The translations under genes were made by a program, and so were the position numbers. The notes under the pieces are model-generated. The model worked only from the letters and a program-made list of their open reading frames with translations. It was not told the DNA's origin and ran no database searches. From Fusobacterium sp. (lineage in GTDB: Bacteria; Fusobacteriota; Fusobacteriia; Fusobacteriales; Fusobacteriaceae), in NCBI RefSeq assembly GCF_030528405.1, contig NZ_JAUMYY010000003.1, positions 1-64,000 on the forward strand: a stretch of 64,000 bases of DNA. Direction: 5' to 3'. Shown here piece after piece: positions 1,413 through 27,356 of the stretch. Numbering within the stretch: position 1 is the first letter of the stretch; each line of letters begins with the position of its first letter.

Positions 1413-1538
1413 ATGAAAGATAAATTTTTAGATGAATTAAGAAACTTTAAAATAGGGCAAATTAAAGAAGAATTAGGAATAGTTGATGAAGGAAATATTG
1501 TATCAGAAGAAGATTTAGAAGGTGATACAGATGAATAA
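1413..1538 (+). CDS. small acidic protein of unknown function
   Basis: This is a 41-residue ORF with ATG at 1413 preceded by TTGGAGGTAA at good spacing. It begins MKDKFLDELRNFKIGQIKEE and is rich in Asp and Glu. It overlaps the start of the ArdC-like gene by 8 nt (ATG 1531, stop TAA 1536-1538), which suggests translational coupling. A palindromic repeat lies just upstream, as for other transfer genes here. No family is recognised. The well-placed ribosome binding site and the coupling are the evidence for it being real. Confidence 0.6.
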   Translation: MKDKFLDELRNFKIGQIKEELGIVDEGNIVSEEDLEGDTDE

Positions 1539-11163: not shown

Positions 11164-11766
11164 CTATATCTCAAATTCTTCATATAATCTATTTATATCT
11201 TCTTCTTCAATTCCTATGTATTTTAGTGTAATTTGTGGACTAGAATGATTAAAAGCTTGCATTATAAGTGCTATGTTAAGAGTTTTCTCGTAGACGTTTT
11301 TTCCCCAAGTTTTTCGTAATGAATGAGAGCCTAAAGGATAAGAAATATTTAGGTAATCTTCAATTTTTTTAAATTCTTTAGAGACACCATTAATAGTAAA
11401 GGGCATATCTAGTTTATACTTCTTTTGATATGGAGATAAGCTTTTAAATAAATAACCTTTAGAATCATATCCTAGATCTTGATAGTATTTTTTCAAGCTT
11501 TTTATAGCCTTCTGACATACTTTATTTAGTTTAATAATTCTTTTCTTCTTAGTTTTCTTTTCAATTAATTCAATTCTCCAGTTCTTTTCGTCTATATCTT
11601 GGAAACATAATTTTGATAGATCTGAAATTCTGAGAGCAACATTGCAGCCAAAATTTATAAACTCTAGGAATACAATTTTATTTTTCCAAACTAGATATTC
11701 TCTTATTTTTTTTAAATCTTCAGTTCTAATATATTTTACTTCCTGTCCTTTTTTATTAACTTTCAT
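11164..11766 (-). CDS. tyrosine recombinase, FimB/FimE-sized (candidate DNA invertase)
   Basis: 200 residues, lacking the N-terminal arm-binding or SAM-like domain of Xer and phage integrases; FimB and FimE have this length. Catalytic residues are all present: Arg46 (ALRISDL), Lys in the beta-hairpin (about 71), His148 and Arg151 (HSLRKTWG), His174 (FNHSS) and Tyr183 (TLKYIGI). AAGAGG precedes the ATG on the minus strand. The element already has a serine integrase, so a second recombinase suggests another substrate. Two inverted 31-bp sites at 11874-11904 and 15344-15374 are the obvious candidates, and one arm sequence recurs in this gene's leader (11778-11788). Confidence 0.85.
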   Translation of the reverse strand: MKVNKKGQEVKYIRTEDLKKIREYLVWKNKIVFLEFINFGCNVALRISDLSKLCFQDIDEKNWRIELIEKKTKKKRIIKLNKVCQKAIKSLKKYYQDLGYDSKGYLFKSLSPYQKKYKLDMPFTINGVSKEFKKIEDYLNISYPLGSHSLRKTWGKNVYEKTLNIALIMQAFNHSSPQITLKYIGIEEEDINRLYEEFEI

Positions 11767-11873
11767 AATTACCTCTTATACTACATATATTTATATAAAT
11801 ACTAACAAAATATATAGTAATAATCAATAAAAAATTTGTTTATCTTAAAAACATATTCAAATATAAAAAATTA

Positions 11874-11904
11874 ATACTACATATAATATCTTAATATGGA
11901 GTAT
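11874..11904. repeat. candidate recombinase site IRL
   Basis: 11-bp arms ATACTACATAT (11874-11884) and ATATGGAGTAT (11894-11904) flank the 9-bp spacer AATATCTTA. On the other strand the spacer reads TAAGATATT, the same as at 15355-15363. A 23-bp stretch (11881-11903) is identical to 15345-15367 in inverted orientation. Confidence 0.7.
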
Positions 11905-12016
11905 CATTATTTTTATTATAATAGTTTTTTTTATAAATATCAAGTAAAAAATAAGAAAAAAAGATATGTTTAGGAAAAAAGACAAAAAAGTCATTTTTAT
12001 TTTTTTGAAAATAAAA

Positions 12017-12057
12017 ATGCACGCTTACGCGTTTCTCTATTCAGAGAAACGAGCGTG
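12017..12057 (-). other. oriT: predicted oriT (RSF1010/MOBQ type)
   Basis: A perfect 9-bp inverted repeat CGTTTCTCT/AGAGAAACG (12030-12038, 12043-12051) lies inside outer arms CACGCT/AGCGTG. On the minus strand it reads inverted repeat, then CGTAAGCG, then TGCAT. RSF1010 oriT, from memory, reads GTTTCTC-GAAGAGAAAC, then GGTAAGTG, nick, CGCCC. The predicted nick is on the minus strand between 12022 and 12021. The MOBQ relaxase begins about 90 bp away, and with this polarity the relaxase gene would enter the recipient last. Confidence 0.75.
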
Positions 12058-12060
12058 TTT

Positions 12061-12112
12061 TTATGAGGCTTTGCCATCATAAAAAAGTAGCCCCTTGAGG
12101 GGCTGAAGGGGG
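12061..12112 (+). promoter_or_regulatory. hairpins and ribosome binding site ahead of relaxase
   Basis: An imperfect hairpin (12061-12082) is followed by AGCCCC-TTGA-GGGGCT (12089-12104). AAGGGGG at 12106-12112 is the apparent Shine-Dalgarno sequence. The CCCCTT of the hairpin could pair with either GGGG or this site, so it may control relaxase translation. Confidence 0.5.
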
Positions 12113-12122
12113 TGTATGCAAA

Positions 12123-14534
12123 ATAGCAGAATATAGATTTCATTATAAAAAAGGTAAATTAGGTTATGCAAGAGAACATGCTGCATACATATTAAGAGAA
12201 GAAAATTACATATCAAAAAAAGAAGAATTAATTTATTCAGAATCAGGGAATATGAATTTTTTTGATGGTACAAGTGCTGTTAAATTTTGGGAATATGCAG
12301 ATACTTATGAGAGAGCAAATTCAGTCGTATACAGGGAGATGGAATTAAATATACCAAATGAATTTAACCATGAACAAGCCAAGACATTGATATCTAATTT
12401 TGTAAAAAAAGAACTAGGAGAAGGATTTCCATATACTTATGCAATACATGAATCTTTTAATAAAGAAGGTGAAAAAAATTTACATTGTCATTTAATGTTT
12501 TCTGAACGTGAAAATGATGGAATAAATAGAAAGTTAGACCAATTTTTTAAAAGAGCAAATTCTGAAAATCCTGCACTTGGTGGGGCTATGAAAAATAGAC
12601 AATGGCAAGAAAAATCAAAGCTTTTAGAATTAAGAAAAAGCTGGGAAATTGAATCTAATAATTTATTAGAAAAGTATGGATTTGAAGCAAGAGTAGATTG
12701 TAGATCATTAAGAGAAATAAGAAGAGAATTATTAGAAAGAGAAATGTTTGATCAAGCTGAGAAATATAATAGGGTTCCTTTAAATATTTCAGGAAAAATA
12801 TTGTATAAAGTAGATAGAAATATTACTTTGACTGATAAAGAGCAAGAGAAATATGATAATTTTTTAGAAGCTAAAAGAATACGGCTAGAAAAAATAAAAA
12901 AAGTTGAAAAGAAAGATTTAAAAGCAGAAATTCAAAAATTAGAAAAACAAAATAGTAATGAAAGGGCTTTAAATATAATAAGTAAAGGAAAATATTTTAA
13001 GTTAAAAAAAGAACTTGCTGCCGTTTCTAAAAAAATTAAAAATTACCCTGAAAATTCTATATTATCTATATTAAATGGAAGAAAAAAATCATTAAACGAT
13101 GAAATTGAAAAAATAAAAAATAGTGTTGAAAACTCAATTAAATATAAAAATATAGTTGAACAATTAGAAAGAAATAGAATAAGAGATTTAGCTAAAGCTA
13201 AAGAACTCTTTATGAGTAAATTTAATGAGAATTATGAATCTAAAGATAACAATAAAGAAAATGAAAAAACAGTAAAGAAATACAAAAAGAAAGATAAATT
13301 ACGATTAAAGATAGAAGAACAAATTTTGTTAAATGAAAATAGTGAAGAAAAAGCAATAAATGTTATAACAGACTACAAGTATAATGCAGAACTTGTGGAT
13401 AATTTTAATTTACAAGATCATAGTGAAAAATTAAAAGAGAAATATAATGAAGCAGCTCTATATAATCAAGAAGAATTAAAAAATATAAAAGTAGAAATTC
13501 TGGAAAATGATTATAAATTAGGAAATAGCAAGAAAAATATATTAGAGTTACTTGAAAGTATTGACGAAGAAAAACTTAAAGAATTATCAGAAAAGATACA
13601 GAAAAAAGATAAATTTAGATTATATTTCGTAAGAGAAGAAATAAAAATGAAAGGTAATCTTATTTCAGATTTAGACTATGAAAAAGAAAGACTAGCTTTA
13701 CTTTATAAGCATTCTAACTTAGAAAAATTATATAATAAAGAGAATGTAAAAGATATGAAAGATAATAAAAAGATGTATAATTTATCTTCAGAAATTGTTG
13801 CAATAGAAAACTTGCTAAACACTGAATACAAAGAAAGTAAAAGTGTTGAAAAATTAGTAAAAGAAAATATAGAAAAGATAAATAATAAAATAGAAAAAAA
13901 TAATAACAGAATAAAAGTTGCTCAAGAAAATATTAACAAAATAGAAATTATAAATAAAGTATACAATAATAAGCATAACCTTAGAGGAATAGAAATCATA
14001 GTAATAGGAAGATTATCTAAGAATGAATATTGGAGATTAGGCAAAGAACAAGAAAAGTTAAAAAAAGAAATAGAACAAAAAGAGAAAGTACTAAAAAGAA
14101 TGAGCTTAATTGCTTTTGGAAAAAATGTTTTAAAGAAAAGTCTTGAATTAAGTAGAGAAGAATTGAAAGCATCAATAAAAAAAGAAAATATTTTAGTTGA
14201 AAAATATACAAAGCATTTGAAGTTTAAAAGTGAAGTGAAAACATTAGAGGAGTATTATGAGAGGGTTATAAAAGATAATAGAAGAGTAATATTTCAATTA
14301 AAACAAGAAAACAAGATTAGTTATCAGTTAAAATCTAATATTCAAGATAATAAAAAAGAAGTAAGGGCATTTACTAGGTTACCTCAAAGAAGGTTAACAA
14401 ATAAAAATACAGCAAGAACATTAAGTAGCTTAAAGAATAATATTCATAATATTTTAGCAGCAGATTCAAGTGAAATTAGGTCTAATTTAGATATAAATTT
14501 AAAAAGAGAGAAGGAGTACGAATGGGAAATGTAG
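12123..14534 (+). CDS. mobA: MOBQ (MobA/MobL-family) relaxase
   Basis: About 803 residues. The frame is open from 12099 and encodes an N-terminus homologous to RSF1010 MobA: AREHAAYILREENY with the predicted catalytic Tyr at codon 12186-12188, then ESGNM, YADTYERAN and the metal-binding HCHLMFSER (His121, His123). The first in-frame ATG (12252) would lose the catalytic Tyr. No standard start is in frame further upstream. ATG 12116, well placed after AAGGGGG, is one base out of frame, so one extra C or a non-standard ATA start is implied. Residues beyond 200 are long Lys/Glu coiled coils. It nicks oriT and pilots the strand. Confidence 0.85.
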   Translation: MAEYRFHYKKGKLGYAREHAAYILREENYISKKEELIYSESGNMNFFDGTSAVKFWEYADTYERANSVVYREMELNIPNEFNHEQAKTLISNFVKKELGEGFPYTYAIHESFNKEGEKNLHCHLMFSERENDGINRKLDQFFKRANSENPALGGAMKNRQWQEKSKLLELRKSWEIESNNLLEKYGFEARVDCRSLREIRRELLEREMFDQAEKYNRVPLNISGKILYKVDRNITLTDKEQEKYDNFLEAKRIRLEKIKKVEKKDLKAEIQKLEKQNSNERALNIISKGKYFKLKKELAAVSKKIKNYPENSILSILNGRKKSLNDEIEKIKNSVENSIKYKNIVEQLERNRIRDLAKAKELFMSKFNENYESKDNNKENEKTVKKYKKKDKLRLKIEEQILLNENSEEKAINVITDYKYNAELVDNFNLQDHSEKLKEKYNEAALYNQEELKNIKVEILENDYKLGNSKKNILELLESIDEEKLKELSEKIQKKDKFRLYFVREEIKMKGNLISDLDYEKERLALLYKHSNLEKLYNKENVKDMKDNKKMYNLSSEIVAIENLLNTEYKESKSVEKLVKENIEKINNKIEKNNNRIKVAQENINKIEIINKVYNNKHNLRGIEIIVIGRLSKNEYWRLGKEQEKLKKEIEQKEKVLKRMSLIAFGKNVLKKSLELSREELKASIKKENILVEKYTKHLKFKSEVKTLEEYYERVIKDNRRVIFQLKQENKISYQLKSNIQDNKKEVRAFTRLPQRRLTNKNTARTLSSLKNNIHNILAADSSEIRSNLDINLKREKEYEWEM

Positions 14535-15061
14535 ATTATAATTCAAGAATCCATAATTTAAAAAAAAGAATAGCTGTCTTGACTAAAAGAAAAAGGTATT
14601 TACAGCGAAAAGGAAAGAAAAAAGAGAGAATCCTAAGAGCTAGAAAATTATTAAAATTAGGAATTATTTTTGAAATTACTTTAACAAAAGAGTACTCAAC
14701 CGAAGTTATTGTTGGACATTTACTTGAACTGAATAACAAAGAAAATGAAATTGAATATTTTAAATACCTTGGTGAAAAAATATTGTCTGAAATTTCTATT
14801 GAAAAACATGATCAAAAAGAAGTTTTATTCCTAGATAGAGAAGAGAAAAAGAAAAGAAATCATAAATTGATTTCTTTAGGGGCATTGTTTGAAATGACTG
14901 AAAGGTTAGACTATCCTTTAGCAGTACAGATAGGATATATTGATAGTCTACATTCATCTACAGATACAGAAATGAAAGTAAAAGAGGAAAAAGGTAAAAA
15001 ATATATAGAAAAAAGGAGGTTTCTAAAAAATGGAAGAAAGTATTTGGAAAATTTTTTATGA
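14522..15061 (+). CDS. TraD-like mobilisation accessory protein with duplicated motif
   Basis: 179 residues, overlapping the relaxase end by 13 nt with GAGAAGGAG inside that gene. A basic coiled N-terminus (KRKRYLQRKGKKKER) precedes RKLLKLGIIFEI (about 41-52). A second copy, HKLISLGALFEM (about 113-126), occurs after a Lys/Arg-rich stretch. This is the conjugal TraD motif (R-x-H-x-L-I-x-LGAL-x-E), normally found once after a relaxase in MOBQ and Ti-like systems. A role at the relaxosome with the relaxase is inferred. It overlaps the next gene by 32 nt. Confidence 0.65.
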   Translation: MGNVDYNSRIHNLKKRIAVLTKRKRYLQRKGKKKERILRARKLLKLGIIFEITLTKEYSTEVIVGHLLELNNKENEIEYFKYLGEKILSEISIEKHDQKEVLFLDREEKKKRNHKLISLGALFEMTERLDYPLAVQIGYIDSLHSSTDTEMKVKEEKGKKYIEKRRFLKNGRKYLENFL

Positions 15062-15338
15062 AAATGGAAATTTAAAAGAAGAATGTCCAATGAGATATGG
15101 CAGGCTTCATGGTATAGCAACATTATATAACGAAGATGGGAGTATAAAAGAAAAGAGAATCTATGAAAATGATATTTTAATGGGAAATCCTTTTAAGGGG
15201 GCAGAACCTGAGGATATTGTTGAAAAATTGGGTTTATTTTTAATAAATCAAGAAGAATGGGAATTAAGTAAAAAAGAAGATGAAGTGGTAATAGAAATAG
15301 ATGAAAAATTAGCTTCAATGATTTTATTTGAAAAATAA
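15030..15338 (+). CDS. MORN-repeat (YwqK-like) protein
   Basis: 102 residues. Two MORN-like units (WKIFYENGNLKEECPMRYGR and LHGIATLYNEDGSIKEKRIY) are followed by an acidic C-terminal half. AAAAGGAGG precedes ATG 15030, inside the end of the TraD-like gene. Proteins of the YwqK group are sometimes called antitoxins, but nothing here confirms that. It is the last gene inside the candidate invertible segment; a terminator-like hairpin follows at once. Confidence 0.6.
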   Translation: MEESIWKIFYENGNLKEECPMRYGRLHGIATLYNEDGSIKEKRIYENDILMGNPFKGAEPEDIVEKLGLFLINQEEWELSKKEDEVVIEIDEKLASMILFEK

Positions 15339-15382
15339 AAAGCTTACTCCATATTAAGATATTATATTGAGTAAACTTTTTT
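15339..15382 (+). terminator. terminator-like hairpin after the relaxase operon
   Basis: AAAGCTTACTCCATAT pairs with ATATTGAGTAAACTTT and is followed by a T-run (15376-15382). It coincides with the candidate recombinase site, so it may serve both purposes. Confidence 0.55.
15344..15374. repeat. candidate recombinase site IRR
   Basis: 11-bp arms TTACTCCATAT (15344-15354) and ATATTGAGTAA (15364-15374) surround the spacer TAAGATATT. The site is inverted relative to 11874-11904 with an identical 9-bp spacer. Confidence 0.7.
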
Positions 15383-15439: not shown

Positions 15440-15766
15440 ATGAAAAAAAAATTTAGATTTTTGAAAATTAACAAGAAAATGATAATGGTATTTTTACTTT
15501 TTGCCTTATCAAGTGTAGCAATGGCAACAACTTCGGATGCACCTTGGGATAAGATGTTAACCAAATTTCTGGGCTATCTTACAGGTTCTACTGCAAGGCT
15601 TTTATCAATTTTAGCTCTTGCATTTGCTGGCTATAAAATTATTTGGGGAAATGCTATGGAAGGTGGAAGTTGGCTTATGAAGGTCGTTATTGGGATGTCA
15701 ATAATTTTTGCCGCTGCTAGCTGGGGTCCACTTTTTTTCGGATACTCAGGTTCTATTTTGATGTAA
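15440..15766 (+). CDS. trbC: TrbC pilin precursor (VirB2-like)
   Basis: 108 residues. The signal peptide ends near AMA (about residue 30); two hydrophobic segments follow, separated by a short loop, and the protein ends GYSGSILM. Size and layout match TrbC/VirB2 pilin. It opens the second transfer block (TAAGGGAGGG ribosome binding site) and would be the substrate of the TraF peptidase at 6068. A terminator-like hairpin lies just upstream. Confidence 0.8.
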   Translation: MKKKFRFLKINKKMIMVFLLFALSSVAMATTSDAPWDKMLTKFLGYLTGSTARLLSILALAFAGYKIIWGNAMEGGSWLMKVVIGMSIIFAAASWGPLFFGYSGSILM

Positions 15767-15787
15767 TTAAGGATAGGGGAATTAACT

Positions 15788-16477
15788 ATGAAAAAAATTT
15801 TTAGTTATAAATCTCCAAAAAGTAATTTTGGGAAAATAGGTGAGTTAGAGATATTTAATCCTGCATATGATAGATATTTAAATTTAGCTAAAAGTATTAG
15901 AAATTGGCAATTAGCTTTTCTTGTCATGTCATGTCTTGCTGGAATTTCTTTAATGTCATATATTTATTTAGCAAATAAGACTAAATTAGTCCCATACATT
16001 ATAGAGATTGACAAAGAAAATGGTTCAATTTACTTTAAAGGGAGAATGGATCAAGTTAAATATGATATTAATGACTCCATAATTTTTTCTATGTTAAATG
16101 ATCATGTTATGAATACTCGTTCAATATCACTTGATCAAGTATTTACTTATAAAAAATTTAAGCGTCAATATGCATTTTTAACAGCTGAAATGAAAAATAA
16201 AATGAGTGAAGAAATACAAAATTATGATTTGGAGAAAAAGTATAAAAATAAAGAAGCTATAGATGTAACTATAACATCAATGCTTAAAGAGAATGATTCA
16301 TATAGAATAAATTGGACAGAAAGAAAATATATTTCTGGAAATAATGTTGAAACAAAAAAAATGACAGGAATCTTTTCTGTGGAGCAAGTAAATAATTTAT
16401 CTGAAGAAGATATAATAATTAACCCTTTGCAAATTTTAATTAAAGATTTCAGTATAACAGCTGATAAATCTTATTAG
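15788..16477 (+). CDS. trbF: TrbF (VirB8-like)
   Basis: 229 residues. A cytoplasmic N-terminus ending in FNPAYDRYLNLAKSIRNWQ precedes one membrane segment (about 38-58) and a periplasmic NTF2-like domain with KLVPYIIEID. This is the VirB8 layout, and the protein helps assemble the inner-membrane complex. It starts 21 nt after trbC and is followed by trbG 12 nt later. Confidence 0.85.
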   Translation: MKKIFSYKSPKSNFGKIGELEIFNPAYDRYLNLAKSIRNWQLAFLVMSCLAGISLMSYIYLANKTKLVPYIIEIDKENGSIYFKGRMDQVKYDINDSIIFSMLNDHVMNTRSISLDQVFTYKKFKRQYAFLTAEMKNKMSEEIQNYDLEKKYKNKEAIDVTITSMLKENDSYRINWTERKYISGNNVETKKMTGIFSVEQVNNLSEEDIIINPLQILIKDFSITADKSY

Positions 16478-16489
16478 GAGGACTTAAAA

Positions 16490-17320
16490 ATGAAAAAATA
16501 TATATTTTGTTTATGTTTACTACTCTCAAGTATTTCTTTTTCTGCTGTAGACAGGGCAAGTGAATTTGATGAATATTCAACACGTCAACCACAAATAGAA
16601 AAAGGTTATAAAAAAAGTAAAACTGATGTAGTGTCTACCTATTTTTATAATGAAAAAGATTCTTATAGAATAATTACAAGAGCAGGATACATTTCTACTG
16701 TTATTTTAAATAAAGATGAAGACATTATACATGCTGAAATAGGGGATGCTACAAGATGGAGTATACAAACATATTACACAGGAAGTGAGAAAGGAATGTC
16801 CCCAGCAATATCTATAAAACCTTTTATTCCAGAACTTCGTACAAACTTAATCATTTCAACAACAAAAAGAATATATAATTTGGTATTAGAAGCAAGCTTA
16901 AATAGCTATGCACCAATTACTACATTTGAATACCCTAAAGAGATAGAGTTACTTAATATACAAAAAAGAGAAAGAGAAAAGGATGAGATAAAAATAGACC
17001 TTTCTAATATGAATTTTAACTATGAATGGAAAAAAAATAAGTATTCTTGGTCGCCAGTTGCTGTATATGATGATGGAAAAAAGACTGTAATAACTATGCC
17101 AGAAAATATAGATACTCAACAATTACCAGCTTTATTTATAAAGGATGAGCAAACAGGAGATGATGCAATTGTAAGAAATAGATATAATCCACGACTTAAT
17201 GCTTATGTGATAGATCGATTAATAGAACAAGCTGTCCTTAAAATTGGAGATAGAGAAATTATAATAAAAAGAAAAGGAAGTTTTATTAAGAAAAAAGAAA
17301 ATTTCTCTGTTTCATTGTAG
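16490..17320 (+). CDS. trbG: TrbG (VirB9-like)
   Basis: 276 residues. Signal peptide about 1-19 (cleavage near FSA). The middle contains ITRAGYISTVILNKDEDI and GDATRW, typical of the VirB9 N-terminal domain. The C-terminal half (YEWKKNKYSWSPVAVYDDGK, TVITMP, LPALFI) is the VirB9 C-terminal beta domain, which joins VirB10 and the outer membrane in the core complex. AGGAGG precedes the ATG. Confidence 0.85.
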   Translation: MKKYIFCLCLLLSSISFSAVDRASEFDEYSTRQPQIEKGYKKSKTDVVSTYFYNEKDSYRIITRAGYISTVILNKDEDIIHAEIGDATRWSIQTYYTGSEKGMSPAISIKPFIPELRTNLIISTTKRIYNLVLEASLNSYAPITTFEYPKEIELLNIQKREREKDEIKIDLSNMNFNYEWKKNKYSWSPVAVYDDGKKTVITMPENIDTQQLPALFIKDEQTGDDAIVRNRYNPRLNAYVIDRLIEQAVLKIGDREIIIKRKGSFIKKKENFSVSL

Positions 17321-17329
17321 GAGGTGTCT

Positions 17330-18496
17330 ATGAATAATCAAGATCCTCACATTTATGAGAATGCAAATACAGAGCAAAAAAACACAGTATCAGGGGAGCA
17401 TATAAGAGGAATATTTTTAAATAGAAAATTCTTTAAAATAATATTTATTATAATAATTTTTATATTGGTTGTAATTATCTTTAGAAAAGACTTATTTGGA
17501 GATAGAGAAGTAGAGCAAGAGCAAGTAAAAAAATCAGAAACATTAAGTAATAAAAAAACAGATAATGAGGTAAATTATGAAAATATTAAAGACTTAGAGA
17601 ATATTAAATATGGAGATGAAAATATTGCAGATGAAGATTACGATAATCCTGATTATAATGTTCCAGCACAAGAAGAATTGAGCCAAGAAGAACAAGATAG
17701 GCTGAACAGAATAAAGCAATTAGAAGACGAGGTAGTTACAGCTTTAAGAAGCCCTACAACAATTACAATTGCTTCTCGTCCTAAAGTAGAAGAATCATCA
17801 ACTGGAAGCTTTTTAATGCAGCAAAATAAACCTGTAACTGATTATGATGGGAATAGGCAAGAGAGTAAGAAGAATTTTTTAATGAATGAACCTGCTCAAA
17901 GATTCTACCAAGAAAATTTTCTGGTGGCACAATTATCAGAGTTTGAGTTAAAAGCTGGAGATTTTATACCAGCCACTATGATAACAGGAATAAATTCTGA
18001 TTTACCTTCAAAAGCTGTAGTAGCACAAGTTTCAGAAAATGTATTCGATAGTATTTCTGGTCGAAATTTACTCATACCACAGGGTACAAAAATAATAGGA
18101 ACTTATGATTCAAGTATCACTTTTGGGCAAGAAAGATTAATAATTATATGGCAACGATTAATTTTCCCTAATGGAAAAACAATAGGTTTGGATAATATGC
18201 AGGGAGTAGACTTATCAGGACAAGCTGGAATAGATGGATTAGTTGATAATCATTTCTCTACATTATTAAAAGGGGTATTACTTTCATCTTTGCTAGGAAG
18301 TGCAGCATCTATTACAGTTGACAAAAGGGATTGGCGAGGAGCTGCTGCAGATGGGGCAGGACAACAAATAGTAGCAATAGGAGAAACTTTTGCAGAGAAA
18401 GCATTATCAAGGCAGCCTACAATTATAATAGAGAAAGGAACTAGATTTAATATAACAGTTCATTCTGATTTAATACTAGAGCCATACAATAACTAG
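17330..18496 (+). CDS. trbI: TrbI (VirB10-like)
   Basis: 388 residues from ATG 17330, five bases after AGGAGG; the in-frame GTG at 17324 overlaps that site and is unlikely. One membrane segment (about 31-50) is followed by an acidic linker and the VirB10/TrbI beta-barrel domain: LKAGDFIPATMITGINSDLP, NLLIPQGTKIIGTYDSS, RGAAADGAG and RFNITVHSDL. It spans both membranes and links energy use inside to the outer-membrane pore. Palindrome copy 5 overlaps its end. Confidence 0.88.
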   Translation: MNNQDPHIYENANTEQKNTVSGEHIRGIFLNRKFFKIIFIIIIFILVVIIFRKDLFGDREVEQEQVKKSETLSNKKTDNEVNYENIKDLENIKYGDENIADEDYDNPDYNVPAQEELSQEEQDRLNRIKQLEDEVVTALRSPTTITIASRPKVEESSTGSFLMQQNKPVTDYDGNRQESKKNFLMNEPAQRFYQENFLVAQLSEFELKAGDFIPATMITGINSDLPSKAVVAQVSENVFDSISGRNLLIPQGTKIIGTYDSSITFGQERLIIIWQRLIFPNGKTIGLDNMQGVDLSGQAGIDGLVDNHFSTLLKGVLLSSLLGSAASITVDKRDWRGAAADGAGQQIVAIGETFAEKALSRQPTIIIEKGTRFNITVHSDLILEPYNN

Positions 18497-18518
18497 GGGA
18501 CACATGTGTCTCTTAGTT
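18491..18518. repeat. intercistronic palindrome, copy 5
   Basis: 28-bp inverted repeat in which the two non-Watson-Crick positions are G-T, so as RNA it would be fully paired. It overlaps the trbI stop; its centre is 30 nt before the traG start. Confidence 0.85.
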
Positions 18519-18533
18519 ATGAGGAGACTAAGC

Positions 18534-20546
18534 ATGAAGAAAGATTCTATAAAAAAGAAAATATCAAAAATACTATTTTTCATCATAGTTCCAGTCGTAT
18601 TATCCGTTGGAACACAGAGTTTTGCGAAAAGGGTAGCTTATCATAAAGCATTAGGGAAGCCAATGTTTCACTTAAATAATATTCCTATATATTCTCCTAT
18701 AAGAATATTAGAGTGGAATAAGATAAAAAGAGCTCCAAAAGCCATTGATTATGCACATAGAAATATGGGTGGGGCTTTGATTTTAGGAATTTTTATTTTA
18801 GCCTTGTTGAATTATAAAAAAAAGAAAATTACGGTTCATGGAAGTGCTGAATGGGCAACGAAAGAAGATATAGACAAAATGGATTTTTTCCCATATAAAA
18901 CTGGAAGTTATAAAAAAGAATATAAATACTCAGGCATTGCTAAAATGTTAAGGGATAAAATATATGATGTTAAGCCATATATAAAAATAGAATTTCCTGA
19001 AAATAAGTTAGAAATGTCTAAAATGGTAATAAAATTATCAATATTAGAAAAAGAATATAAAAATAATGAGTATAAAAAACATGGAGTTTATTTAGGAAGA
19101 GATAAATGGGGTAGAGATTTGATAGATTCAAGCCCAGGTCATGTAATGATGATAGCAAGGACTGGAGGAGGAAAAGGAGTTTCGGTAGTTATCCCAACCC
19201 TACTTACTTGGAAAGGCTCAACATTAGTAAATGATATTAAAGGTGACAACTGGTTATATACAGCGGCATATAGAAGGAGCTTAGGACATAAAGTATTTAG
19301 ATTTCATGCAACAGCAGATGGACAAATTGATAAAAAAGGAAACATTATAAAAACTGGAGAAAATCTATCTTGTCATTACAATCCTATGGTTGAAATAAGA
19401 AAAGGAACAGTTTATGAATATCAAGAAGCTTACATGATAGCAGAAACTATAGTTTCTCCTGATAAATTAAAAGACAAATTTTTCGGACCAAATGGGGTTA
19501 ATTTTTTAGCAGCTGTAATTTTACATGTCTTGTATATGGTAAAAAATAGAACTGCAAATATCACTGATGTTTATAACTTTTTCACAAGCCCACAGTTTTC
19601 TGAAGAAGAAAAATTAAAGAAAATGATTTCAGAAGAACATAATTCAGAAGAAAGAGAAAGTCTTTTTTATGAAATATATAATGATGTTATTGTCTTAAAA
19701 AATGGGATGGAAAGTCCTAGAACACATCCTAAGGTATCAAGAGTAGCAGCAGACATGTTAGGAAAAGCAGAAAAAGAAAGGTCTGGAATAATGTCAACGG
19801 CTAAAACAGAATTATTTCCATTTTCTGTGCCTACAATAGCAAGAAATACAGCTTATTCAGATTTCAGAATAAAAGATTTAATGAATTATGAAACTCCTGT
19901 AGATTTATATTTTGTAACACCTCCTAATTCAGTTGATATAACCTCTGTTTTATTAAAGTTATTTTTAAATCAAATAATTTTTATTCTTACTGAAGAAATA
20001 AAACTGAACAAAAAAGGAGAGAATGTAGCTTATTTACATAGACTACTAATACTGATGGATGAATTAACTGCAATAGGGAGAGTAGATTTATTTCATAAAG
20101 CAATATCATATATAAGAGGTTATGGAATGAAAGCACTTCTAATTATTCAAGATATGAAGCAATTAAAAGAAGTTTATGGAGAAAATAATAGTTTCCTAGG
20201 TAACATGTCTACTACTATTTACTATACTACAAATGATGTAGATACAGCTCAATATATAGAAACAAGATTAGGAAATAAAACTGAAAAAATAATTACAAAA
20301 TCATATGGGGCTGGATTATTTAAAAAAGTAAATTATTCTGAAAGTTATGTAAAAAGACCTCTTATGACTAAAGAAGAAATACATAACATGGGGGAAGATG
20401 ATTCAGTGATTTTATCAGCAGGCAAACCTCCAATTAATGGAATATTAAATAGATGGTATAACGATGATGAGTTTAAAAATAGAATTGCAAGAGTTCCAGC
20501 ACTCGAAAAAAATTCACAGTCAGACATAATAAAAGAATACAGATAA
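18534..20546 (+). CDS. traG: TraG/VirD4 coupling protein
   Basis: 670 residues from ATG 18534, preceded by GAGGAG; the 18504 ATG lies in the palindrome. Two N-terminal membrane segments (about 14-32 and 80-98) precede the ATPase domain with Walker A ARTGGGKG (208-215), TLVNDIKGDNW, and Walker B LILMDELTAIG (Asp about 509). This hexameric ATPase hands the relaxase-DNA complex to the secretion channel. It is followed by palindrome copy 6. Confidence 0.92.
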   Translation: MKKDSIKKKISKILFFIIVPVVLSVGTQSFAKRVAYHKALGKPMFHLNNIPIYSPIRILEWNKIKRAPKAIDYAHRNMGGALILGIFILALLNYKKKKITVHGSAEWATKEDIDKMDFFPYKTGSYKKEYKYSGIAKMLRDKIYDVKPYIKIEFPENKLEMSKMVIKLSILEKEYKNNEYKKHGVYLGRDKWGRDLIDSSPGHVMMIARTGGGKGVSVVIPTLLTWKGSTLVNDIKGDNWLYTAAYRRSLGHKVFRFHATADGQIDKKGNIIKTGENLSCHYNPMVEIRKGTVYEYQEAYMIAETIVSPDKLKDKFFGPNGVNFLAAVILHVLYMVKNRTANITDVYNFFTSPQFSEEEKLKKMISEEHNSEERESLFYEIYNDVIVLKNGMESPRTHPKVSRVAADMLGKAEKERSGIMSTAKTELFPFSVPTIARNTAYSDFRIKDLMNYETPVDLYFVTPPNSVDITSVLLKLFLNQIIFILTEEIKLNKKGENVAYLHRLLILMDELTAIGRVDLFHKAISYIRGYGMKALLIIQDMKQLKEVYGENNSFLGNMSTTIYYTTNDVDTAQYIETRLGNKTEKIITKSYGAGLFKKVNYSESYVKRPLMTKEEIHNMGEDDSVILSAGKPPINGILNRWYNDDEFKNRIARVPALEKNSQSDIIKEYR

Positions 20547-20547
20547 A

Positions 20548-20575
20548 AACTAAGAGACACATGTGTCCCATAGTT
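20548..20575. repeat. intercistronic palindrome, copy 6
   Basis: Arms AACTAAGAGACACA and TGTGTCCCATAGTT, 12 of 14 paired; centre 31 nt before ATG 20592 and just upstream of its AAGGAGG. Confidence 0.85.
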
Positions 20576-20591
20576 GATAAAGGAGGCAAAG

Positions 20592-20909
20592 ATGATAGAA
20601 GAAAAAAATGAAGGAGTAACTGTTGAAGATAATTTAGAAACTCCTAAAAATAAAAAGAAAACAATAGATGAAAAAATTGAAGAATTAAAAGAAAAATTAA
20701 AATTAGCAGAATTAGAAAAAAAGAAATCGATAGAAAAAAAAGGAAAGAATTTATGGTTAAAAATAAAGTCTTTGTTTTTGACAGATGAAAATATAATAGA
20801 TGAAATTCTTAATGATCCTGAAAAAATAGAGAATTTAAAACAGGCAATACTTAATTTTTTAGAAGAAGAGGAAAAGAAAAAAACAAGGGAGAAGTCAAAT
20901 GAAAAGTAA
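20592..20909 (+). CDS. coiled-coil protein between traG and trbB, unknown function
   Basis: 105 residues from ATG 20592, which follows AAGGAGG. It is highly charged, with a predicted coiled coil (about 22-55, heptad-like KIEELKEKLKLAELEKKK) and an acidic C-terminus. No signal or membrane segment. It overlaps trbB by 11 nt, so the two are probably translated together. No counterpart at this position in the IncP trb operon comes to mind; a link to the TrbB ATPase is only positional inference. Confidence 0.55.
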   Translation: MIEEKNEGVTVEDNLETPKNKKKTIDEKIEELKEKLKLAELEKKKSIEKKGKNLWLKIKSLFLTDENIIDEILNDPEKIENLKQAILNFLEEEEKKKTREKSNEK

Positions 20910-21828
20910 TTTATTAGATCTTCTTGAAATAAGCTTTGGTCCACAAATAATGGAATATATGAATGATGAAGATGTAGTTGAAATTATGAAGAATGATGAT
21001 GGTAAAGTCTTTATAGACACATTATCACAAGGGATGATATTTAAAGGGTATATGGAAGCAGATAAGGCTTTAAATATAATTTATTTAGTTGCTAACCATT
21101 CTGGGCAAGAGGCTACAGTAGAAAATCCTATTATAAGTGCAGAATTGCCAGGAAGTGGATTTAGATTTGAAGGAAATATTCCTCCGCTCACAACAACAGC
21201 GGCATTCAATATAAGAAAATATTCTATTTTAGAATTAACATTAGATGATTATGTTAGGGACAAGATTATGTCAGAAACACAAGCCAAATGTATAAAAGAA
21301 GCTGTAAAGGAAAGGAAAAATATTCTTGTAGTTGGAGGAACGGGAAGTGGAAAGACAACATTATGTAATGCAATATTAAGTGAAATGTCTCAATATAACC
21401 AAAGAATTATAATTATTCAAGATACAAATGAGCTTAAATGTAGTTGTGAAAATAGATTATTTATGAAAACAAGTGAATATGTATCTATGAGAAAGTCATT
21501 AGTATCTACTCTTAGAAGAACGCCAACAAGAATAGTTATAGGAGAAGTTAGAGATGGAGCAGCACTAAATGTATTAATAGCCTGGAATACAGGACATCCT
21601 GGAGGTTTATGTACTTTACATGCAGATAATGCTATAAAGGGAATAAGGCAATTTGAAAGTTATATAATGGAAGTCTCAACATCACCACAAAGAGAAAAAA
21701 TAGGAGATACGATAAATTTAATAATTGATTTACAAAGAGAGGGCTTAAGAAGAAAAGTAAAAGGAATAATAGAACTTAAAGGCTACGATACTAAAAAAGA
21801 AGAATATATATTAAAATATTTAACTTAA
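20899..21828 (+). CDS. trbB: TrbB (VirB11-like) secretion ATPase
   Basis: 309 residues. Walker A GGTGSGKTT begins at about 146. The Asp box (IIIQDTNELK), Walker B-like RIVIGEVRDG and the His box (GHPGGLCTLHADNA) follow in the usual order. VirB11 proteins form hexamers at the inner face of the channel. GGGAGAAG precedes the ATG inside the upstream gene. Followed by trbD 13 nt downstream. Confidence 0.9.
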   Translation: MKSNLLDLLEISFGPQIMEYMNDEDVVEIMKNDDGKVFIDTLSQGMIFKGYMEADKALNIIYLVANHSGQEATVENPIISAELPGSGFRFEGNIPPLTTTAAFNIRKYSILELTLDDYVRDKIMSETQAKCIKEAVKERKNILVVGGTGSGKTTLCNAILSEMSQYNQRIIIIQDTNELKCSCENRLFMKTSEYVSMRKSLVSTLRRTPTRIVIGEVRDGAALNVLIAWNTGHPGGLCTLHADNAIKGIRQFESYIMEVSTSPQREKIGDTINLIIDLQREGLRRKVKGIIELKGYDTKKEEYILKYLT

Positions 21829-21841
21829 AGGAGTGGTATAA

Positions 21842-22099
21842 ATGAAATATGAGGATTTAAGATTTCCTATTTGTAAAGGATTTATAAGCCTTCCAACAAC
21901 TGCAGGAGGAGAGAGAACAGCGGTTCTTCTTAATATGTTGGTAGGATTAATTTCATTTTTTGCAACGGAAACATTATATTTTATAATTTTTGTAACAATT
22001 CCTCTTCATTATATAATAGTTAAATTAACAAAAAAAGATTATTTATTCTTTACTGTATTTAGAAATCATTTAAGGTATAAAGACTATTATCATTCATAA
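21842..22099 (+). CDS. trbD: TrbD (VirB3-like) membrane protein
   Basis: 85 residues with a hydrophobic hairpin (about 29-60), flanked by a short N-terminus containing FPICKGFISLPTTAGGERT and a charged C-terminal tail. Size, topology and place directly before trbE match TrbD/VirB3, which docks on the VirB4 ATPase. AAAGGAG precedes the ATG. Confidence 0.8.
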   Translation: MKYEDLRFPICKGFISLPTTAGGERTAVLLNMLVGLISFFATETLYFIIFVTIPLHYIIVKLTKKDYLFFTVFRNHLRYKDYYHS

Positions 22100-22103
22100 A
22101 TTA

Positions 22104-22125
22104 TAAGAGATAAGTATGTCTCTTA
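22104..22125. repeat. intercistronic palindrome, copy 8 (degenerate)
   Basis: Perfect outer arms TAAGAGA (22104-22110) and TCTCTTA (22119-22125) around GATAAGTATGTC, a decayed form of the GACACATGTGTC core. It abuts the AGGAGG of trbE; its centre is 23 nt before the start. Confidence 0.6.
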
Positions 22126-22136
22126 GGAGGAATAAA

Positions 22137-24893
22137 ATGTTTAGAGAATTTAAAAAGAGAAATTTACCTAAAAAATTCAAAAATAATGATGATTCATTGA
22201 CAGATTTATTGCCATGGGCGTATATCTATGAAAACAATGAATCTAACTTATTTATTGGAGAAGGTGAAGATTTAAAAACAATAACTTTCCCTATAGTAAT
22301 GACAAAAGACGGAAGTTTTCAAACTACTTTTAAATTTAGGGGTAGAGATTTAGATAGCTGTACTCCAGATGAATTATATCTAGTAAATGAAAGATGTAAT
22401 AATGTACTAAGACAATTAGATGCAACATGGACATTGCACTTGAATGCTATTAGAAGAAAAAGTCATAGCTATATTCAAAAAGAGAATATAAAAGCAATTC
22501 CTTTAAAGATAATTGAATTAGAAAGAAATGATTTTTTCACTTCTGGAAGCCACTACGAAAGTGATTATTACTTAACATTTACATACAATACTCCTGAAGA
22601 TAAATTAAAAAAGGCTAGAAATATATTTTTTAAGAATACAGATGTGACAATAATCGAAAATCATTTTAAAGATAATCTTAAATATTATAATGATGAAATA
22701 TACAGGTTATTTTTCTTATTAAGTGAAGTATTATCAGAGTGCAAGGTACTAAATATAGATGAAACTTTAACATATTACCATAATTTAATTTCAGATATAA
22801 AAATAGAGTTTTTAAAAGTACCAAAAGCATTTATAAAAGAAAGGTCTATTGTAAATGATGGAAAGTTGGTGAAAGAAAGTAAAATTATAGCAGTAGGAAC
22901 AGAATTACCAGAAATGTATAAAAAAGATAAAGATAATATAAGGGAAGAAATACTCCCAATTTTAATAGATAATTACATTTCTGATACTCCATTAATTGGA
23001 GGTTTAACTCCACAACTAGGGAAGGAGTATATAAAGGCTGTTTCATTATTATCTTTTCCAGGAAATTCAATACCAGGAATCTTAGATCAATTAAATAGAT
23101 TGAATTTTGAATATACTTGGAGTACAAGATATATGATGTTAGATAAATTAAATGCTCTAAAAACTATAAAATTTTATACAAAAAGATGGGGAAATGCGAG
23201 GACATCATTTACAAATTTAATTAAAGAAGGTTTACTTAGAAAGAAAACAGAGGAGAATGAAAGTGCAGGATATAAAGAGGAACAAGTAAAGCAAGAAGGA
23301 ACATTAATAGAGCAAGAAGAGACAGCTTTAGGTTATTATACGATTACAATTATCTTGAAAGATCAAGATAAAAGTATTGTTGAAAAGAATGCTTTAACTA
23401 TAAGAGCAAAGTTAAATTCTTTAGGATTTACAGCTCAAATAGAAGATTTCAATATTTTAGATTGTTTTTTCGGTTCGTTACCAGGAAATATAGTTATGAA
23501 TGAACGAAAACCACCACAAAATTCAAGAGTTTATAGTCATCTAATTCCACTAAATGCGGTATGGGCTGGAGATGAGAAGAATGAATTTTTGAAAAAACCA
23601 CCACTATTATACTGTCAAACAATAGGACATACGCCATTTAGACTAAATTTACATTATAAAGATGTGGCACACACTCTAATAATAGGTCCTACTGGATCTG
23701 GAAAATCTGTATTACTTGGAATGCTTCAAGCGGAATACTTGGCTTATGGAAATACAAAAGTTATAGCATTTGATAAAGGAGCTTCTACAAAAGTTTTAAA
23801 TAAGGCTTGTGATGGAGTTTTCTATGATTTAGGAGAAGATAATATAAGATTTCAACCACTAAGAAGTATTGGAGATAATTCAAAATTTCTTATTGAAAAA
23901 TTTAAAAAAGAAATAGAGATTGAAGGAAAAATAATAACAAAAATTGAAGAAGAAAAGATTTCAGAAATTGAAAGAAATGAAAAAAGTAGAGCAAATAAAG
24001 AAAAAGAGTGGTGTCAGGAGTGGATAGAAGACATATTAGAAAGTAATTCAGTTCAATTAACACCAGAAATAAAAAATTATGTATGGAATGCTTTAACACA
24101 ATTAACTACTTTACCAGAACATAAGAGAACTATTTCATCGTTTGTAGATTTGGTTGGTGGACAATCAAAAGTTATAAAAGAGGCTTTGACAGCATATTAT
24201 GGGAATGGAGCTTATGCAAAATATTTTGATGGGAATAGTGACTTTTTGAAAGAGTCAAATTACATAGTGTTTGAAATGGAAAAAATATTAGAGACGAAAA
24301 ATGCAGTAATGCCAACTTTAAATTATTTATTTCATGTAATAGAAACTAAAATGGTAGATAAAAAAACACCTACACTTTTAACATTAGATGAATGTTGGGT
24401 ATTTTTAGATAATCCTAAATTTGAAAACAAAATAAGAGAATGGTTAAAGGTAATGAGAAAAAATAATGTTGGAGTTGTATTTGCAACTCAGTCTCTATCT
24501 GATGTAGCAGAGAGCAAAATAAAAAGTGCAATCTTAGATGCATGCTATACAAGAATTTACTTACCAAATAGCAATGCAAAATCAGAAATTCAGCAATCGT
24601 ATTATAAGATGTTTGATCTTAATGATACAGAAATAGATATAATATATAATTCAGTGCCTAAAAGACAATATTATTTTAAAAATCCTAAAGGATCAAGATT
24701 ATTTGAATTGGCACTATCAAAGCTAGAACTTTCTTATGTTGCCACATCTGGAGGTAAGGATTTAGAAAAATGTAAAGAGTTAGGTCATCTAAGCCAAGAA
24801 GAATTTAATGTAAAGTGGTTAGAATATAAAGGATTTGAAGGAGAAATTGTTGTTGGGAAAATAAAAGAATTAATAGAAAAAAACAGTTTTTAA
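22137..24893 (+). CDS. trbE: TrbE (VirB4-like) secretion ATPase
   Basis: 918 residues from ATG 22137, preceded by AGGAGG; the frame's earlier ATG (22116) overlaps the degenerate palindrome. The N-terminal half is the VirB4 family domain. The ATPase domain has Walker A GPTGSGKS at about 517, VIAFDKGAS, and Walker B LLTLDECWVFL, then VVFATQSLSD. An inserted Lys/Glu segment (about 600-640) lies between the Walker motifs. VirB4 powers pilus and channel assembly. Followed by palindrome copy 7 and the outer-membrane gene. Confidence 0.92.
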   Translation: MFREFKKRNLPKKFKNNDDSLTDLLPWAYIYENNESNLFIGEGEDLKTITFPIVMTKDGSFQTTFKFRGRDLDSCTPDELYLVNERCNNVLRQLDATWTLHLNAIRRKSHSYIQKENIKAIPLKIIELERNDFFTSGSHYESDYYLTFTYNTPEDKLKKARNIFFKNTDVTIIENHFKDNLKYYNDEIYRLFFLLSEVLSECKVLNIDETLTYYHNLISDIKIEFLKVPKAFIKERSIVNDGKLVKESKIIAVGTELPEMYKKDKDNIREEILPILIDNYISDTPLIGGLTPQLGKEYIKAVSLLSFPGNSIPGILDQLNRLNFEYTWSTRYMMLDKLNALKTIKFYTKRWGNARTSFTNLIKEGLLRKKTEENESAGYKEEQVKQEGTLIEQEETALGYYTITIILKDQDKSIVEKNALTIRAKLNSLGFTAQIEDFNILDCFFGSLPGNIVMNERKPPQNSRVYSHLIPLNAVWAGDEKNEFLKKPPLLYCQTIGHTPFRLNLHYKDVAHTLIIGPTGSGKSVLLGMLQAEYLAYGNTKVIAFDKGASTKVLNKACDGVFYDLGEDNIRFQPLRSIGDNSKFLIEKFKKEIEIEGKIITKIEEEKISEIERNEKSRANKEKEWCQEWIEDILESNSVQLTPEIKNYVWNALTQLTTLPEHKRTISSFVDLVGGQSKVIKEALTAYYGNGAYAKYFDGNSDFLKESNYIVFEMEKILETKNAVMPTLNYLFHVIETKMVDKKTPTLLTLDECWVFLDNPKFENKIREWLKVMRKNNVGVVFATQSLSDVAESKIKSAILDACYTRIYLPNSNAKSEIQQSYYKMFDLNDTEIDIIYNSVPKRQYYFKNPKGSRLFELALSKLELSYVATSGGKDLEKCKELGHLSQEEFNVKWLEYKGFEGEIVVGKIKELIEKNSF

Positions 24894-25753: not shown

Positions 25754-25873
25754 ATGGAAAGAAAATTAATAACATGTAATATAGAAAAATCTGAAGAAGA
25801 TATTGAATATTATAATTACTTAATTACATATTTAACGGAAATTTATTTAAAAGAGGTAGAGAATAATGAATAG
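25754..25873 (+). CDS. small protein coupled to the serine recombinase
   Basis: 39 residues, beginning MERKLITCNIEKSEEDIEYY, acidic. ATG 25754 has AAAGGAG at 25741-25747. Its end overlaps the recombinase start by 8 nt (ATG 25866, stop TAG 25871-25873), so the two are probably coupled. I recognise no family. A directionality or regulatory role next to the integrase is possible, but this is inference. Confidence 0.5.
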   Translation: MERKLITCNIEKSEEDIEYYNYLITYLTEIYLKEVENNE

Positions 25874-27356
25874 AGTAGTAGCTTATTGTCGTTTTTCATC
25901 TGATCATCAAAGAGAAGAAAGTATTGATGCACAAGTAAGAGCAATAAAAGAATTTTGCTTAAAAAATGGCTATAACTTATTAAAAGTTTATAAAGATGAA
26001 GGAATTTCAGGAACATCAATTAGAGATAGAGAAGCTTTTCTACAACTAATAGAAGATAGTAAGAAAAATCAATTTGATTATGTTATAGTGCATAAGTTTG
26101 ATAGATTTGCAAGAAATCGATATGACCATGCAATATACGAAAAAAAATTGAATGAAAATAAAGTAAAATTAATATCTGTCCTTGAGCAATTAAATGATAG
26201 TCCTGAAAGTGTTATTTTAAAAGCAGTATTAACAGGTATGAATGAATATTATTCTCTTAATCTCTCTCGAGAAGTAAAAAAAGGATTAAATGAAAATGCT
26301 TTAAAAGGAAAGCATAATGGGGGTGTACCACCACTAGGCTATGACCTTGATGAAAATAGAAAATATATAATCAATAAAAAAGAAGCTGAAGCTGTTAGAT
26401 TAATATTTGACTTAGCCTTGAAAGGCATAGGGTATACAAATATAGCAAAGGAATTAAATAAAAGAGGCTATAAAAATAAATTAGGTAGAGAATTTAGGAA
26501 GGTTTCTATAAGAGATACCTTACTTAATGTGAAATATATAGGTACTTATTATTTTAATTTAAAGGATGAAAATGGGAAATTACAGAAAAAGCCTATACTA
26601 ATTGAAAATAATCATGAAGCGATAATAGATAAAGATATTTTTTATAAAATACAGGAAAGATTTAAAATAAGCAAAAAAGGTCCTAGAAAAAGAAAGGGAA
26701 ACAATTATATTCTAACAGGATTTTGTGCTTGTGGAGAGTGTGGAGGTACATATTCAGGGGGCTATAGAAGTAAAAATAGGGATGGCACAATTTCTTATGG
26801 CTATAATTGTAGAGAAAGAAAAGAAAAAATAAATAATTGTAAGAATAAACCAATAAGAAAAGAATTGATTGAAAACACAATAATTGATATAATAAAAAAT
26901 AACATATTAAGTGAAAATAATATGGAAATAATAGCAAATGATATACAAAAAAACATAGAAAAGATAGATAATAGAAAGGAGATTGAGTATTGTGAAAGTG
27001 AGATAAAGAAATTAAATGAGATGGCACTAAAATTACTGGAAAAGAATTTAAATGGCATTGTAGAGGATGAATTTTTTAAAATAAAAAATATTGATATAAA
27101 GAGTAAAATTCAAGGATTAAAGGAAAGGTTGTATTCACTTGAAAAGGAAAGAAAAAAGGATTTAAGCAGAGAAAAAATAAAGGAATATTTATTAGAAATA
27201 AAAAAAGATTCTACTGATAATTTAAACAGAAAATTAGTAGAATCATTCATAAAAAATATAAAGCTTTTTCAAGATAAAATCGAAATAACCATTAGAAAAT
27301 TCCCTAAAGAATTTGAAGCTACTTCTGTTAAATATGGTGGAAGTGACGGGAATTGA
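25866..27356 (+). CDS. large serine recombinase (element integrase)
   Basis: 496 residues. The resolvase-type catalytic domain has YCRFSSD (nucleophile Ser11), EGISGTS, DFDRFARN-like KFDRFARN and NEYYSLNLSREV. The recombinase domain follows (GGVPPLGYDLDE, IAKELNKRGY). A zinc ribbon (CACGECGG...C) near 280-330 and a coiled coil (370-450) complete the family layout. The last seven codons lie inside the 3' end of ssrA, so the C-terminus is supplied by the chromosome. It is the presumed integrase of the element; large serine integrases at tmRNA genes are uncommon. Confidence 0.9.
   Translation: MNRVVAYCRFSSDHQREESIDAQVRAIKEFCLKNGYNLLKVYKDEGISGTSIRDREAFLQLIEDSKKNQFDYVIVHKFDRFARNRYDHAIYEKKLNENKVKLISVLEQLNDSPESVILKAVLTGMNEYYSLNLSREVKKGLNENALKGKHNGGVPPLGYDLDENRKYIINKKEAEAVRLIFDLALKGIGYTNIAKELNKRGYKNKLGREFRKVSIRDTLLNVKYIGTYYFNLKDENGKLQKKPILIENNHEAIIDKDIFYKIQERFKISKKGPRKRKGNNYILTGFCACGECGGTYSGGYRSKNRDGTISYGYNCRERKEKINNCKNKPIRKELIENTIIDIIKNNILSENNMEIIANDIQKNIEKIDNRKEIEYCESEIKKLNEMALKLLEKNLNGIVEDEFFKIKNIDIKSKIQGLKERLYSLEKERKKDLSREKIKEYLLEIKKDSTDNLNRKLVESFIKNIKLFQDKIEITIRKFPKEFEATSVKYGGSDGN
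27335..27356. other. element-chromosome junction (att region) at ssrA 3' end
   Basis: The tmRNA gene is complete to its encoded CCA (complement of 27335-27337), and mobile-element coding sequence reaches this point. The crossover therefore lies at or close to 27335-27356. The other att site is outside the window. Confidence 0.6.

Follow-up and report, generated by a model that had tools for sequence, protein, structure and literature searches.

The stretch of DNA analysed here (the window) comprises 64,000 nucleotides from Fusobacterium sp. and covers most of a 64,084-bp contig (NZ_JAUMYY010000003.1) in an AT-rich genome of 1.66 Mb. The left 27 kb of the window is a conjugative element. The left part of the element carries, in order, genes for a topoisomerase and ArdC, trbJ/trbL/traF-like genes, and genes for ParA, the ToxN toxin and a small tyrosine recombinase (called REC here). 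From REC onwards, the order is recombination site 1, a predicted origin of transfer (oriT), a MobA/MobL relaxase, a traD-like gene, a gene for a MORN-repeat protein and recombination site 2. The trb block, which encodes the mating pore, a type IV secretion system (T4SS), follows directly. The right part ends with an OmpV-like gene, a large serine recombinase and the tmRNA gene. The coordinates of the features are collected in Table 1.

Table 1. Features of the conjugative element in the window, from REC to the serine recombinase
Feature	Position	Strand	Evidence or remark
REC, 200-aa tyrosine recombinase, catalytic domain only, likely invertase	11164..11766	-	Pfam Phage_integrase E=1.4e-20
Extra arm in the REC leader, ATACTACATAT	11778..11788	+	exact; possible autoregulatory operator
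Recombination site 1, REC side	11874..11904	.	ATACTACATAT-AATATCTTA-ATATGGAGTAT
Predicted outward sigma-70-like promoter, TTGATA-N17-TATAAT, within the segment (oriT end)	11943-11915	-	11/12 consensus matches
Predicted oriT hairpin (GCACGCTTACGCGTTTCTC...GAGAAACGAGCGTG)	~12017..12057	+	aligns with the same motif 5′ of the relaxase in pKKCOM1330A
MobA/MobL (MobQ-type) relaxase, within the invertible segment	12117..14534	+	MobA_MobL E=7e-19; homologues
TraD-like relaxosome gene, within the segment	14522..15061	+	PF06412 E=1.3e-5
MORN-repeat protein gene, within the segment	15030..15338	+	MORN_2, PF07661 E=1.1e-9
Recombination site 2, trbC side	15344..15374	.	TTACTCCATAT-TAAGATATT-ATATTGAGTAA
trbC-trbF-trbG-trbI-traG-trbB-trbD-trbE mating-pore (T4SS) block, proposed switch target	15440..24893	+	TrbC confirmed
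Large serine recombinase (CcrB-like)	25866..27356	+	adjoins tmRNA; separate from the switch

The Phage_integrase domain spans residues 13–185 of REC. The N-terminal core-binding domain is missing, with residues 5–195 aligning to positions 89–263 of the XerA model. The R-K-H-R-H-Y catalytic set is intact, and the residues R46, K71/K74, H148, R151, H174 and Y183 are invariant among 11 homologues. Each of the two sites consists of 11-bp arms around a 9-bp spacer. The spacers are asymmetric and exact reverse complements of one another; they are thus identical but inverted. The inverted exact match of the two sites extends over 23 bp (TACTCCATATTAAGATATTATAT). When up to three mismatches were allowed, the site sequence was found only at sites 1 and 2 in the 64-kb window, and a chance match was ruled out (0 expected; 0 in 100 shuffles). 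The same two sites were the only ones across the whole 1.66-Mb genome. Both are intergenic, and neither splits a coding sequence. A shufflon of the Rci type was rejected on these grounds. A preliminary description of this DNA had picked out the paired sites, the 200-residue recombinase directly beside the left one and the further exact arm in its leader, and all of these are present exactly as read. From its sequence, this extra arm is a possible autoregulatory operator, and the REC leaders of pKKCOM1330A and of the element designated G009 likewise hold extra arms.

A comparison of the window with pKKCOM1330A of F. polymorphum (NZ_CP084160.1) indicates that the transfer block is inverted between these homologous elements. 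The REC of pKKCOM1330A is 77% identical and its relaxase 48%, and it carries the same trb block and serine recombinase. Its gene order is that of the window, except that the relaxase–traD–MORN block is reversed relative to trb and REC. In pKKCOM1330A this block diverges from trbC, and the block of the window is opposite. The two sites of the plasmid, CTACTACATAT-TATGCTATT-ATATGTAGTAT at 12231–12261 and CTACTACATAT-AATAGCATA-ATATGTACTAT at 17915–17945, share their arms with those of the window; the spacer is different but matched and inverted within the plasmid. The flank from the site to trbC is homologous up to the site edge (score 86; maximum of 500 shuffles, 47.5), and the oriT region also aligns (score 163.5; shuffle maximum 82). 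In the window, the oriT is next to the site on the REC side; in pKKCOM1330A, it is next to the one on the trbC side. The homologous trbC flank and the oriT thus border a single site in pKKCOM1330A but separate sites in the window, which places the inversion breakpoint at the sites. On the oriT side, the first 60 bp did not align above shuffles, nor did the flanks next to REC and MORN, and the breakpoint is therefore resolved to the base on the trbC side only. It had been predicted that inversion would flip oriT, relaxase, traD and the MORN gene relative to trb, and a search of homologous elements for the opposite arrangement had been proposed. This arrangement is what pKKCOM1330A shows, with the flanks swapped at the sites. 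Beyond pKKCOM1330A, the plasmid search gave no near-identical element in the other orientation.

Inverted pairs with one site just 5′ of trbC were identified in eight divergent elements. The pair flanks the relaxase block in seven of them (the window, pKKCOM1330A, pFV113-g1-2, G052, G005, G020 and G048). In the eighth, an F. hwasookii plasmid, it flanks REC alone and is still directly 5′ of trbC; the invertible segment of Fn12230 is probably of this kind as well. The longest inverted match exceeded any direct match in 10/10 loci tested. The spacers vary between elements and match within each element. Spacers conserved only within an element, together with arms conserved between elements, are what a pair of tyrosine-recombinase sites would be expected to show. 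G009, whose REC homologue is 65% identical, has a perfect site just 5′ with the same arms and another 9-bp spacer (ATACTACATAT-TAGTATAAA-ATATGTAGTAT). Outside these elements, neither a close REC nor the sites were found in two other genomes of the same genus, and a scan of genome contigs with REC gave only distant matches (~33–43%), Bacillus-type and others. The viral contigs contained REC relatives at ~30–37% identity and one match to the arm pattern; no relaxase relatives were found in them.

REC homologues are also found away from trb (G025, G026 and G028; ~56% identity), where the site pair flanks REC itself. The REC segments of G025 and G026 are in opposite orientations, and their flanks are exchanged. 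Because the same locus is oppositely oriented in the two, the comparison indicates that this recombinase family inverts DNA. In G028 (L131:4088-7171), the 56%-identical homologue flanked by inverted sites lies 5′ of a small lipoprotein gene; L129 (G025) and L130 (G026) are further such loci. The same G028 locus has two genes for adhesins of the FadA family (PF09403, E=1.5e-30 and 2.1e-27). The opposite REC segments of G025 and G026 suggest that the FadA-family operon is phase-variable. F. varium pFV113-g1-1 (L124, 50001–70000) has two REC homologues 2 kb apart that adjoin many inverted repeats between two stretches ~7 kb apart, and the region is possibly another inversion locus.

Two other identities of the sites were considered. 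The first is that they serve for resolution, like Xer/dif or cer sites, or as attachment sites for integration of the element. The 11-bp arms and the distant relationship of REC to Xer proteins would fit. Resolution, however, needs direct repeats, and the sites are inverted in 10/10 loci; a Xer/dif or cer system was thus rejected. As for attachment sites, a serine integrase belonging to the element is already encoded next to the tmRNA gene. REC is located mid-element, and an assignment as the integrase of an integrative and conjugative element (ICE) acting on an att site was discarded for this reason. We regard resolution or attachment sites as highly improbable.

The second is that the two match by coincidence, the right site serving solely as a terminator and the left one solely as a REC operator. 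In the MORN-to-trbC transcript, site 2 and the surrounding A-/T-tracts do fold into a terminator-like hairpin (−10.2 kcal/mol) that is absent once inversion is modelled (−5.5), and extra arms are present in the REC leaders. Against this, matched spacer pairs recur across many elements with differing spacers, zero chance matches are expected, and the opposite arrangement exists with its breakpoints at the sites. Such a coincidence is hardly credible. The preliminary description had allowed for 15344–15374 being only a terminator, as related elements with the same hairpin and unrelated spacers would suggest. The spacers match within each element instead. A role as terminator in the present orientation is possible, but the matched partner with an identical inverted spacer contradicts a terminator-only identity, which we rejected.

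A strong outward promoter is predicted at the oriT end of the segment (p=0.001–0.003 vs shuffles). As oriented in the window, it is directed through site 1 into REC. A modelled inversion puts it ~100 bp 5′ of trbC, as in pKKCOM1330A. Counterparts with the same 17-bp spacing were identified at the same end in pKKCOM1330A (TTGCAA/TATAAT), G009 (TTGAAA/TATAAT), G052 (TTTACA/TATATT), pFV113-g1-2 (TTGATT/TATAAT), G005 (TTGACT/TATAAT) and G020 (TTGAAA/TATAAT), and weaker ones elsewhere. The outward promoter scores 10–11/12 in seven elements and 8–9 in six more loci, all with a 17-bp spacer. The combined Fisher p is 8e-13 vs shuffles for the oriT end and 0.46 for the opposite ends; the combined value is a guide only, the homologues being not fully independent. 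The F. hwasookii plasmid has a promoter-like sequence at the trbC-facing end of its REC-only segment. The interval from the segment to trbC in the window contains no promoter of comparable strength. The relaxase keeps its own 5′ flank in either orientation. We infer that the promoter at 11915–11943 is active.

The promoter could also be incidental, with inversion serving mainly to flip oriT, such that other genes enter the recipient first, or to join relaxase transcription to trb. The oriT does lie within the segment where the relaxase block is flanked (aligned for two elements). With the oriT inside, transfer must, after an inversion, proceed the opposite way with respect to the remainder of the element. 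However, the F. hwasookii segment (and probably that of Fn12230) is REC alone, without oriT and directly 5′ of trbC, and the outward promoter recurs (p about 1e-12). We consider such a main role for the oriT flip improbable. Inversion had been suggested earlier as a possible switch of mobilisation. The inversion is supported, but its likely target is transcription of the trb/T4SS genes (and of REC), an output missed by that suggestion.

The layout of the family points in the same direction. Among the Fusobacteriaceae trb elements examined with a nearby relaxase and no site pair, the relaxase is divergent from trbC in 9/9 (G050, G041, G008:C3, G006, G007, both G019 elements, G015 and G023). Where a site pair surrounds the relaxase block, the two are co-directional in six of seven elements and divergent in one, pKKCOM1330A (Fisher p=0.0009, relatedness uncorrected; G009, co-directional with one site, left out). 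From these sequences, the divergent layout would seem to be the one that works by default in the family, and the co-directional one occurs only where the switch exists. The 330 bp 5′ of trbC in the site-less elements have promoters of mixed strength. The window is probably in a state with the T4SS OFF and REC ON, and pKKCOM1330A probably has the T4SS ON.

We read the locus as a FimB/FimE-like DNA inversion switch (inverton) controlling a conjugation system, with a probability of approximately 0.8. The basis in sequence is the paired sites, the intact REC, the two orientations between homologous elements and the recurrence of the promoter. REC, most likely the enzyme that inverts the segment, would bind the 11-bp arms of the two inverted 31-bp sites. 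Strand exchange in the identical 9-bp spacers would then invert the 3.47-kb segment with oriT, relaxase, traD and the MORN gene, and the outward promoter would move with it. In orientation A, that of the window, the promoter would be directed through site 1 into REC, and trbC, behind the site 2 hairpin, would be without a good promoter of its own; the T4SS operon would probably be OFF. In orientation B, as in pKKCOM1330A, the promoter would lie beside trbC and read into the T4SS operon, and transfer would probably be ON. Switching is presumably reversible in living cells. We slightly favor a broader proposal, that this is a Fusobacteriaceae-wide phase variation of transfer. One flip of oriT, relaxase and promoter would toggle the mating pore and reverse the direction in which DNA is sent, and the promoter in the OFF state would feed REC and favor the flip back.

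Several observations weigh against this interpretation. The window and pKKCOM1330A are homologous but diverged. The circular pKKCOM1330A record cuts the C-terminus of the serine recombinase and the N-terminus of TraF at its ends and has no match to the trbJ and trbL of the window; it appears to be either a derivative that has undergone deletion or an ICE contig that was wrongly closed. In G009, REC is accompanied by one perfect site, for which no partner was found. The pair of G020 is a 14-bp core only, near chance by length alone. The promoter calls are consensus matches; that of G048 is at chance (p=0.43), and those at REC-only loci are marginal (p=0.05–0.09). A weak promoter-like match overlaps site 2, and the strength of the AT-rich site hairpin as a terminator is doubtful. 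In Leptotrichiaceae-type elements, relaxase and trb are co-directional and no REC is present. The co-directional layout is therefore not inherently OFF, and the argument from layout is limited to the family.

The switch could also have inverted in the past and now be locked in this host, with REC or the sites silent and the orientation of the window fixed. Only one orientation was assembled. The partner site is lost in some relatives (G009), and in many the vicinity of trb lacks both REC and a site pair. The relaxase has ATA instead of ATG/TTG, and the element is possibly decaying. On the other side, REC is intact with all of its catalytic residues, the spacers are 100% identical, and the arms equal those of other elements. 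A locked switch thus appears unlikely.

Other features of the element were noted. The large serine recombinase is probably the integrase of the element. The end of its gene overlaps the 3′ end of the tmRNA gene (RF00023, 27335–27677, minus strand), and the element is for this reason probably integrated at ssrA. The hairpin 5′ of the relaxase most likely represents a MobQ-type oriT. At 12117–12130, a good ribosome-binding site of the relaxase is followed by ATA, in the place of the ATG or TTG start of relatives. The ATA may be an unusual start codon or may result from mutation or from an error in sequencing, and the translation start is uncertain. A palindrome, GACACATGTGTC, is found between element genes six times in the window (1383, 3552, 7008, 18499, 20556 and 24902; 0 expected), and pKKCOM1330A has several copies of a longer version (AAACTAAGTGACACATGTGTCACTTAGTT). 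It is possibly an element-wide regulator site or a terminator. The C-terminal stretch of the ToxN-like toxin (10226–11107) strongly resembles the C-terminus of ArdC (1522–3543; alignment score 343), which suggests a domain common to the toxin and the antirestriction protein.

With a DNA-inversion switch acting on conjugation machinery, whether a cell is a donor would be set stochastically and inherited. If the proposal is true, cells are heritably divided into potential donors and silent carriers, and the element's spread may amount to a heritable coin-flip. This bears on the old question of why a small fraction of element-carrying cells act as donors. With its defined sites, REC would also be a new recombinase convenient for reporter work, and the mobile elements of Fusobacterium would be connected to a family of recombinases that in other places flank an operon for FadA-family adhesins.

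Known invertons act on surface structures, on flagella and on certain resistance genes. In the fim switch of E. coli, the tyrosine recombinases FimB and FimE (~200 aa, without an N-terminal core-binding domain) are encoded beside the inverted site pair fimS, and a promoter within the invertible DNA reads outward. The present locus similarly has a small recombinase beside an inverted pair and an outward promoter, here predicted from sequence, in the segment. Unlike fim, it would control a conjugation T4SS, its 3.5-kb segment contains oriT, relaxase, traD and the MORN gene, and one orientation appears to send the promoter into the recombinase gene itself. The dates of the fim switch are given elsewhere (PMC11868660). 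In Bacteroidales ICEs, an invertase and inverted repeats regulate antibiotic resistance genes inserted into glycan-synthesis loci (PMC8748976). The conjugative element described here shares an invertase and inverted repeats with these invertible promoters; the passages searched in that account describe no invertible control of transfer genes. The shufflon of IncI1/IncI2 plasmids (Rci) makes PilV pilus variants that affect pilus-tip specificity (PMC5430464, PMC9045228). It is likewise a site-specific DNA inversion that affects mating on a conjugative plasmid, but it varies PilV, whereas the mating pore would here be toggled by one segment that carries an outward promoter. The RecV switches of Clostridioides difficile (PMC7446863, PMC5386303) also involve tyrosine-recombinase inversion 5′ of an operon and phase variation; their targets are chromosomal flagella and toxin genes, and the target here would be horizontal transfer. 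In the literature searched, from which most subscription papers were missing, no account of a conjugation T4SS controlled by an inversion switch was found; this is weak evidence of absence. By every feature that could be tested in the sequence, the locus is a tyrosine-recombinase inverton. What is new is its target and its cargo: the element's own conjugation machinery would be switched, and oriT and the relaxase are within the invertible DNA.

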